DNA from: Acidobacteriota bacterium
Lineage (GTDB): Bacteria; Acidobacteriota; Terriglobia; Terriglobales; Acidobacteriaceae
Reading direction: 5' to 3'
Length of the DNA: 64,000 bases
Assembly (NCBI GenBank): GCA_025359885.1
Contig: JANYDG010000024.1
Coordinates: forward strand, 1 to 64,000
Each line of letters opens with the position of its first letter. Positions within the stretch are counted from its first letter, which is position 1. Below are positions 11,630 to 63,751 of this stretch, in pieces. The translations under genes were made by a program, and so were the position numbers. The notes beneath the pieces are model-generated. The model was not told the origin of the DNA, did no database searches, and saw only the letters and a program-made list of their open reading frames with translations.

Positions 11630-11966
11630 TCAATCGATTTTGTTGACAGGACTCTTCGCCCCAGGGCGCGGACTGACAGCTGACTGTAAGACTGCCGGCG
11701 GGGACTATGCAAGAGTCATCGATGGCCGAAGTCGCTTTGTGAACGCGACCAGAGAATGAATGAAGAACAGCATTGTCGTGGTTGAGAAAGATATCCTCGC
11801 CAATCGCTCGCTTGAACTGGCGCTGGAGATTCGTTTTACGGAAGCGGACCCGATCCGACCGACGAGCCTCTTGCCGTATCTAACCGACGGTAGTTGCGAA
11901 TCTGCCAGGTGCTTTCGAACAAATCCTGGCCTGGACGAATTTAGCGGAACGGGGTCTCGTGAGCTA

Positions 11967-12078
11967 AGGCATTTTCAGGAATTCTGTAAAGTCTCTCGCT
12001 TGGGTGAGGTTGTATTTTTCTTGATGAAAAATCCAGTGAGCAAAGCTTCTTCGGTCTACACCATTCCTAGAAATGCTC
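11967..12078. repeat. MITE-like element, copy 1 (112 bp)
   Basis: The element begins AGGCATTTTCAGGAAT and ends ATTCCTAGAAATGCTC, an imperfect terminal inverted repeat of about 16-18 bases. A central hairpin has arms ATTTTTC and GAAAAAT around TTGAT. A TA dinucleotide stands immediately outside each end (11965-11966 and 12079-12080), as expected for insertion by an IS630/Tc1-mariner type transposase. Copy 2 at 61852-61964 is clearly homologous over the whole length, with roughly three bases in four identical by eye. It contains no coding sequence. Confidence 0.8.
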
Positions 12079-12143
12079 TAGTCGTTCAATCCTGGTGCAC
12101 CATAGACACATGCCTTCGATCAAATTCGGCACTACTGGACCTC

Positions 12144-61507: not shown

Positions 61508-61851
61508 ATATCCTCCTAGAATTCCGGGGATACGAGTAATGTATCGTAGCGCTCCGGCAGTAGACAAACAGTATTTGGGGTAAGGCTTCCTATTCAGGCT
61601 AGCATAGGGGGAACTGCGATGTAGGCTCTGCAGGCGCAACCAATGTATCACCCTATCTGCACCAAAAGTGGGCTTTGGCATCGGGCTTTTGTCCCATTTG
61701 CCCGTCCCGCCAGTAGAAACTTCGTGGCAAATTCCGGCGCCTCAGCGTTGCCCCCCTGGAAAGAATGCTGCATCTGGCAGGCAAAAGGTCGTGGGAGATC
61801 GTTGAGGGATGGACACTACCCTTGCACAGAGATAACGGGGATACCGGTCTA
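61508..61851. other. intergenic region left of MITE-like copy 2
   Basis: No gene was seen. It is upstream of the second JmjC-like gene and should hold its promoter; the ribosome binding site AGGAGG is at 61512-61517. Confidence 0.5.
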
Positions 61852-61964
61852 GAGCATTTCCAGGAATACGGTGAAGTGTCTAGCTTTCGCGAGGATGGAT
61901 TTTTCTTGATGAAAAAATCCAGTCAGCGGTGCGGCCTGCCTTCATACCATTCCTGAAAATGCTT
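61852..61964. repeat. MITE-like element, copy 2 (113 bp), inserted at a stop codon
   Basis: The element begins GAGCATTTCCAGGAAT and ends ATTCCTGAAAATGCTT, an inverted repeat of about 16 bases with two mismatches. Inside is a hairpin with arms GGATTTTTC and GAAAAAATCC around TTGAT. TA stands immediately outside both ends (61850-61851 and 61965-61966). The right TA supplies the first two bases of the stop codon of the minus-strand esterase gene, and the element supplies the third. Homologous to 11967-12078. Confidence 0.82.
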
Positions 61965-63409
61965 TAGCGTGACACCGGAGAAGTTGTTGGCGCTGCTTGC
62001 GACTGCCAGGATTGAAAGCGCACGACCTCGGGGAATGGTTGCTGCGGATTGGCGAGTAGAGGCTGGGGCTGGGCCTTCAACGTCTGGAGGAAAAACGCGA
62101 CGACATAGGCATTGATAATGGTAGCGGCTCGGGATTGAGGGAGCGTCCCGATTCCAGACAGCGAGTGAAAGGGCGAGAAGAAGCCCTTGTCGCTAAAATT
62201 TTCATGGTCGATGCCGCGAATGACGACCTGGTATCCTCCGAATTTTCGAAAAGAAGCGGCCAGGGCAGTTTCGCCGAGGATGCTCATCTGCGCATGTACG
62301 CGGGTGCTCTGGATCGGTGAGAGTTCGCTGCCCGGGGGCATCTCCGGGGCTTCCGCCTGAATGCGGAAGAGGGGCTTTGGCAAGCCGATCTCAGCGACTG
62401 GACCGTGCAGTACGCCGTCGAGCACGATTGCGGAGACGACTCGCTGGTCTTCACTGGCCAATTCTGCCGAGACAGAACCACCAAACGAGTGCCCAAATGC
62501 TCCGACGTGGGTCAGATCCAGATGACCAGCCAGCGGGTCGGTGGCTGAATGATCGATCGCAGTGAACTCGTTCAGGACAAATTTATCGTCATCGGTTTGA
62601 ATCCGCAACTCGTTGTGGGCGAGATTCAATCGCTGTTCCAGGGTGAGGGTGGGCTTGGAATAGAAATCCCCCAGATCAACCTGGGTGCGACCGTCGGCCC
62701 TGCTGCCATCATGAAGCTCGACGATGGCGGCGTTGTAAGGGTGCGAAACACCGACGACGATAAAGCCCTGGCTGGCCAACTCCTGCAGAATGTAGCTGCT
62801 TCGATTGCGAAATCCGCGCCAGGCGTGATTGAAGAGGATGACCGGGAACCGGCCTGGGGCTATGGGAGCGTCCAGAATGGCGTCGGTTTTGAGAACGGCC
62901 TGATAGGTAGAGCGGAAGTCGGTTTCCTTCCACTGTCGATAAAACGCGTGGGGGCCGGTGCGGGTCGCGGATGGGTACCAGACCTGGACGACAACTTCGC
63001 GATTATGGTGAGGCGTGTGGGGATGCGTCTCCTGGCGATTTGGATCGACGAAATAGAGCGTTCTGGTGGCGATCGGGAAGGGTCCAGTGGGGCTGAGGAC
63101 GTGAAACATAGGAAGTGTGTAGCAGAAAGCCAATCCGCACACGAGCAGGGTCATTGAAACGGTTGCGGTGTAAAGCACTGACCTACCACTCCAGGTGGGT
63201 CGCATGAACGGAAGAAGCAGGAGAAGAATCGCCAGATAAATGGGAATCATCTGCCAGTGAGCGCCTTCGAGCCACGCATGGACTGGGAGCATGAGCAGGG
63301 CGGCGAGAGTCGCGAGGCGAATCCAAAATGGCCATATCCGTCGAGCAAGGAGGGTCCAACCCAACGCGGGGAGACTCAAGACCACCATCAACCACTCAAA
63401 TGTTCGCAT
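61964..63409 (-). CDS. membrane-anchored alpha/beta hydrolase, PAF-acetylhydrolase-like
   Basis: A 481-residue protein. The first 120 residues form about four membrane helices (FEWLMVVLSLPALGWTLL and similar). An exported or periplasm-facing alpha/beta hydrolase follows, with nucleophile Ser in GAFGHSFGGSVSAE, the oxyanion region VILFNHAWRGFR, and His in RGIDHENFSD; the order and spacing resemble platelet-activating-factor acetylhydrolase proteins. It could cleave an ester on a lipid or glycan. ATG 63409 follows AGAGGA; the open frame reaches 63661. Its stop codon is partly made by the MITE-like insertion. Confidence 0.82.
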   Translation of the reverse strand: MRTFEWLMVVLSLPALGWTLLARRIWPFWIRLATLAALLMLPVHAWLEGAHWQMIPIYLAILLLLLPFMRPTWSGRSVLYTATVSMTLLVCGLAFCYTLPMFHVLSPTGPFPIATRTLYFVDPNRQETHPHTPHHNREVVVQVWYPSATRTGPHAFYRQWKETDFRSTYQAVLKTDAILDAPIAPGRFPVILFNHAWRGFRNRSSYILQELASQGFIVVGVSHPYNAAIVELHDGSRADGRTQVDLGDFYSKPTLTLEQRLNLAHNELRIQTDDDKFVLNEFTAIDHSATDPLAGHLDLTHVGAFGHSFGGSVSAELASEDQRVVSAIVLDGVLHGPVAEIGLPKPLFRIQAEAPEMPPGSELSPIQSTRVHAQMSILGETALAASFRKFGGYQVVIRGIDHENFSDKGFFSPFHSLSGIGTLPQSRAATIINAYVVAFFLQTLKAQPQPLLANPQQPFPEVVRFQSWQSQAAPTTSPVSR

Positions 63410-63751
63410 CCGATTCCTCTGACCTGACTTTGTGGTGAGGTTAGCATAAGGCTGGTCATTGCGCCCGGCGCAGCGGATGCAATGAAGCGGAATGCTGGTA
63501 CAACTTCTGCGGCAGGATACGGTTTTGGCAAACCATGCACGGCTATACTTTGATGGTTGGGCATCAACGTCTCCGAAAACGCCAGCAAAGCAGTTTGGCC
63601 TACAGATTATCAATGCGCTCGTTTTCATGTGTCGTCCAGTAAAGTCTTTGCCGATCATCAAACAGGAGCGCCAATTTTTCCAACCAGATGTGACAAACCA
63701 AATGCTGATTGATTTGCTTCAGCCGAGTGAATTCAGCCATGACGACCCACT
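63410..63751. other. divergent intergenic region before the flippase gene
   Basis: No convincing gene; a plus-strand frame of 87 codons at 63492-63755 shows no domain. It separates divergent genes. TATACT at 63543-63548 is a possible plus-strand -10 element, but no good -35 is seen. Confidence 0.4.

Follow-up and report, generated by a model that had tools for sequence, protein, structure and literature searches.

An IS630-type MITE family with a hairpin fold of fixed length in the Acidobacteriaceae

Two related elements in the window and their copies in the genome

The 64,000-nucleotide stretch of Acidobacteriaceae DNA analyzed here (the window) contains two short, related repeats flanked by TA (Table 1). 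The initial annotation had proposed that segments 11967-12078 and 61852-61964 align over their full length, carry terminal inverted repeats (TIRs) and a central hairpin around TTGAT, and have TA flanks, all of which was borne out; the coordinates 61852-61964 correspond to the element without its TAs. End-to-end alignment of the two copies gave approximately 75-77% identity, their TIRs are 25-28 nt long and 76-79% complementary, and the central hairpin GGATTTTTC-TTGAT-GAAAAATCC is present in both. With the flanking TAs, the 12-kb copy measures 116 bp and the 61.8-kb copy 117 bp, the difference being one extra A in the core. Homology does not run well past the TA borders, an outcome the annotation had also considered, but instead ends at them in both copies. 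Folded as single-stranded DNA, the 61.8-kb copy had a z score of -4 relative to shuffled sequences.

Table 1. Positions of the two window elements, their parts, and the Y1 transposase genes of the same genome
Feature	Position	Strand	Remarks
MITE copy, main subfamily	61850-61966	+	includes TA on each side; element proper 61852-61964; 92-95% identity to many other copies in the genome
Left TA of 61.8-kb copy	61850-61851	.	presumed to be half of the target duplication; surrounding bases C-TA-G, in agreement with the YTA/TAR border consensus
Left TIR of 61.8-kb copy	61852-61876	+	GAGCATTTCCAGGAATACGGTGAAG
Apical core hairpin of 61.8-kb copy	61896-61921	+	TGGATTTTT / AAAAATCCA with TTGAT loop; apical stem conserved across relatives
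Right TIR of 61.8-kb copy	61940-61964	+	reverse complement starts AAGCATTTTCAGGAATGGTATGAAG
Right TA of 61.8-kb copy	61965-61966	.	with base 61964, forms on the minus strand the TAA stop codon of ORF 61964-63661(-)
MITE copy, second subfamily	11965-12080	+	includes TA on each side; core GTATTTTTC; 15 copies of the subfamily analyzed
Apical core hairpin of 12-kb copy	12011-12035	+	
Y1 (RAYT-like) transposase gene (L184), G000	C62:8741-9064		
Y1 (RAYT-like) transposase gene (L185), G000	C5:91335-91607		
Y1 (RAYT-like) transposase gene (L186), G000	C26:1419-1709		

The repeat is abundant in the 4.2-Mb genome far beyond chance. A BLAST search with the 61.8-kb copy returned at least 40 scored copies of 84-100% identity among 79 candidate places, and an 18-nt end pattern matched 113 times (58 + 55), compared to 4 times (2 + 2) for the reversed control pattern. 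In all, 56 distinct copies were extracted and analyzed; 41 belong to the main subfamily, and the remaining 15 group with the 12-kb copy. The earlier suggestion that two copies point to more in the genome was an understatement. In the fetched loci, full-length matches with TIRs far outnumbered partial ones (162 versus 9), the 9 partials being the only truncated or internally replaced versions, and no hidden transposase was noticed. The element is thus short (approximately 116 bp), multi-copy, and devoid of a transposase gene, as expected of a MITE. At two loci, partial or second, diverged copies lie within approximately 150 bp of a full copy (L008:1444-1478 and L013:1360-1453), which suggests repeated insertion at one spot; in another genome (G200), two elements of the hairpin family are located approximately 400 bp apart (L269:994-1109 and 1501-1615).

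The ORF that takes its TAA from the 61.8-kb copy encodes a PAF-acetylhydrolase-like protein. In 51 of 120 elements (42%), an end coincides exactly with the stop codon of an ORF that is 100 codons or longer. Because the element usually begins with TAR at both ends, it can restore a stop codon, and approximately 30% of YTAR sites in the same DNA overlap the stops of such ORFs. Stop-codon targeting was rejected on this background: tolerance suffices to explain most of the 42%, and little or no targeting need be assumed. An element at or just behind the stop of apparently the same gene was seen in this genome (L203) and in LL6.bin61 (L081), the two insertions being apparently independent.

Target sites and IS630 transposases with matching ends

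Searches of the genome and its relatives yielded many copies with clean borders, most of them with TA on both sides. In a set of 122 elements drawn from this genome and its relatives, the left TA is preceded by a pyrimidine (C or T) in 113 cases, and a purine (G or A) follows the right TA in 108; beyond these YTA/TAR borders there is a weak preference only, and homology ends. Joined flanks of 28 loci were compared with related genomes for unoccupied sites, which by the initial reading should retain a single TA. This was seen cleanly for two insertions, L086, whose site is unoccupied in two relatives (the short left flank alone aligned), and L114, unoccupied in one. The relative has AA at the TA position of the L051 site, with the junction length unchanged, and TGA where the filled strain has TA at the L129 site, while at the L113, L090, and L032 sites divergence is too great for the junction to be read. 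The unoccupied sites, with clean cases for two insertions and ambiguous ones for the others, appear to fit a 2-bp TA duplication, i.e., a single dinucleotide before insertion.

An IS630-type transposase with matching ends, as anticipated by the initial annotation, was found in relatives but not in this genome. In its assembly, which is 94.8% complete, the NCBIfam IS630 profile detected no IS630 transposase at E ≤ 0.01, so that the copies in this genome look orphaned; an autonomous copy was likewise rejected, given this result and the lack of any pair approximately 1 kb apart among the unpaired end matches listed. IS630 matches occur in 50 of 120 genomes of Acidobacteriaceae. The fetched IS630 loci include eight copies (L229, L230, L233, L237, L241, L277, L285, and L288), 1012-1058 bp long and distributed over seven related genomes, that carry TAGAGCATTT-like terminal repeats; one of them, L277, resides in a member of the window bacterium's own genus (G007). 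The 66 MITE ends of 33 elements served to train a position matrix; when applied to these loci, the matrix ranked the true termini first and second among the 126-236 TA sites per locus in all eight, compared to ranks of 8 to 186 for IS630s with other ends, none of which (0 of 10) ranked first and second. Most ends of the eight show the YTA/TAR context, and several reproduce the left/right asymmetry of the MITE, with CTGT or a similar sequence on one side and GGTGT on the other.

The transposases of these eight elements match one another with 86-321 bits, whereas the ten differently ended IS630s match them with at most 53 bits or not at all; that of L229 contains the Pfam domains DDE_3 and HTH_Tnp_IS630. 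In seven related loci (L234, L287, L231, L299, L291, L296, and L307), both ends were not assignable with confidence. This TAGAGC-ended IS630 subgroup of the Acidobacteriaceae shares with the MITE the end layout TA-RAGCATTTYY-N5-A-GGTGTA and a mostly YTA/TAR target context. It differs in its size of 1.01-1.06 kb, compared to approximately 116 bp, and in its transposase encoded in overlapping frames, and the MITE-type core hairpin was not found in the four copies scanned. No autonomous copy with an exactly identical 26-nt end was found; by letter count, the best pair of ends, the right end of L288 and that of the L032-type MITE, shares approximately 19 of 26 letters. A variant of at least 126 bp in JOPF046 (L071, L073, L103, and L118) has an extra small hairpin in its left arm and an end, TAGAGCATTTCTCC, similar to that of the IS630 element L288.

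The genome also contains three Y1_Tnp genes, as a REP/RAYT system moved by a Y1 transposase would have. The loci fetched around these genes contain no match to the core or the ends of the element; short GGCTAAAGCC-type palindromes are found there instead, and TA borders and long TIRs are unlike those of REPs, making such an origin extremely improbable. At least two of the genes (L185 and L186) lie among these palindromes, a REP-like system in its own right alongside the MITE. The copies, TA borders, empty sites, and shared IS630 ends altogether support the initial proposal of a non-autonomous element mobilized by IS630/Tc1-mariner enzymes, and we regard it as highly likely that one particular subgroup of the IS630-family (Tc1/mariner-like, DDE) transposases mobilizes this MITE of approximately 116 bp in trans. 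We infer from sequence comparison both that transposition actually took place and which enzyme moved the copies of this genome.

Distribution, fold, and covariation of the family

Sixteen diverse elements were used to build a covariance model, which found matches in 40 of 150 Acidobacteriaceae genomes, representing 19 of 79 genera, with at least 20 matches in several genomes; as 24 candidates were scored in each, the per-genome counts are lower bounds. In a phylum survey of 247 genomes, all matching genomes but one belonged to the Acidobacteriaceae, and the sole match outside the family (G430; E value of 8e-4, 31 bits) was weak and taken as chance. The element is therefore an Acidobacteriaceae-wide family with essentially no members outside. 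Elements of the same length with the same GCATTTTC ends and an apparently different central sequence, of the GGGAACGGCG type, were observed in G047.

In an alignment of 16 sequences, whose loci were mostly fetched by core sequence, 88.8% of pair cells are standard pairs, compared to 73.1% (sd 1.2) in shuffles and at most 52.8% with slid partners; both-sided changes occur in 21 of 34 pairs, and RNAalifold agrees. Among elements found by, and fitted to, the covariance model at 34 loci (one per locus, nearly all from different genomes), 91% of pairs are standard, and exchanges among G-C, C-G, and A-T preserve the apical stem as well. Length is equally constrained, at 114-119 bp in all 33 full model-found elements and in 117 of 122 elements measured with lengths of 111-143 allowed. 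An ends-only search, which used a set length range and neither core nor structure, recovered elements with differing self-complementary cores, including GGCTTTTC/GAAAAGCC and GGCGTTTTC/GAAAACGCC, with 0 hits in the control. The apparent invariance of the core GGATTTTTC...GAAAAATCC is thus partly an artifact of core-based fetching; since the letters of the core vary, it is the stem that is kept. Altogether, the hairpin shape and the length are fixed family-wide while the sequence changes by paired substitutions in the arms and core.

Strong covariation across genera, together with the many copies at the 3′ ends of ORFs, would also be expected if the element were chiefly a functional RNA or regulatory hairpin, such as a terminator or an mRNA-processing site, with selection on the inserted copies and mobility incidental. 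Within this genome, however, stem changes are almost all one-sided, 139 (87 of them pair-breaking) compared to 2 compensatory; an RNA role has no need of IS630-type ends and TA borders, and no Rfam match was obtained in gathering or E-value mode. We consider this explanation quite improbable. Inserted copies seem to decay freely, and because individual copies decay one-sidedly, any selection probably acts on spreading. Divergence between copies of the main subfamily is 2.8% in the ends and 3.1% in the core, compared to 6.6-9.6% between them, and the ranking is the same in the second subfamily, with ends and core lowest; the constraint on these parts is probably exerted during spreading.

By itself, covariation of the arms does not prove selection on folding, because both transposon ends bind the same enzyme; the apical stem, which is not part of the TIR, is the stronger argument. 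Paired changes might also arise by mutation. Template switching during replication corrects quasi-palindromes, and a long imperfect palindrome, as this element is, represents a classic substrate. The element would still be an IS630-moved MITE, and template switching, by letting one arm copy the other, would concern only the cause of the covariation, keeping the hairpin perfect as its sequence drifts; spreading copies could be those that had just been corrected. Yet the genome still contains many one-sided changes that have escaped correction, neither the constant overall length nor the conservation of unpaired loops, internal and apical, is accounted for, and the TIR constraint would change both ends together anyway. 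We judge this origin of the paired changes unlikely. Tentative, and short of probable, is the proposal that selection targets the folded hairpin itself, beyond the TIR sequence, since an extruded or single-stranded hairpin would be the required substrate for transposition, as the length-locked fold of approximately 116 nt, the compensatory changes in arms and apical stem, and the family-wide persistence may suggest.

Proposed mechanism and relation to known repeats

In the mechanism we propose, the transposase would recognize a TIR composed of TA-NN-GC-A, a variable stretch, and then GGTGTA or CTGTGA approximately 20 bp in; it would excise the element and reinsert it at a TA, preferably within YTAR, leaving a TA on each side. 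As a whole, the element is an irregular hairpin, and pairing in its arms and apical stem persists while the letters differ from genus to genus. Since the hairpin is not maintained in individual copies once inserted, it may help spreading, e.g., by end pairing or by cruciform or lagging-strand extrusion, and we infer that the fold itself matters for transposition. In this genome, the enzyme would now be missing or unassembled, and the copies are probably immobile and decaying.

Two results go beyond the initial annotation: relatives harbor a transposase subgroup with matching ends, and the hairpin covaries and is locked in length throughout the family. Because one family combines many naturally diverged variants of fixed length and covarying stems with a transposase subgroup that matches them, and because some genomes have the enzyme and others do not, the role of the hairpin in transposition is directly testable; the repeat is also useful for annotating Acidobacteriaceae genomes. 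In line with the initial statement that no described family with this end sequence was known, neither a family with these ends nor such elements in Acidobacteriaceae were found in the open-access literature searched; a survey of Acidobacteria genomes refers to IS elements in general terms, and its main text is silent on MITEs and IS630 (PMC5900883).

Among the nearest known repeats, RUP of pneumococcus is a 107-bp element of approximately 108-110 copies with a TA target and IS630-Spn1-like TIRs that pair in the fold (PMC2229807, PMC3049150). RUP and IS630-Spn1 resemble the present MITE in size, copy abundance, TA target, IS630-type TIRs, and their pairing, while sequence and host are different, and the present family spans many genera, has covarying arms, and lacks its partner IS630 in this genome. 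RUP is the one bacterial repeat element that a 2007 review names as having ends matched to an IS (PMC2229807). ERIC (also IRU or RU-1) is a 127-bp palindromic repeat with terminal TA, present in many genera of related families in variable copy number (PMC2229807, PMC3049150, PMC10969869), traits shared by the present MITE; the passages on ERIC consulted in these sources name no transposase for it, whereas the present MITE has TIR-matched IS630s, and the sequences are unrelated. Correia or NEMIS elements, of approximately 107 or 155 bp with terminal TA, a 24-bp TIR, and a long stem-loop (PMC2229807), are similar in their short size, TA ends, TIR, and stem-loop, with a Neisseria sequence unrelated to that of the MITE. 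The element found here is a new IS630-type MITE family of the RUP, Correia, and ERIC kind.
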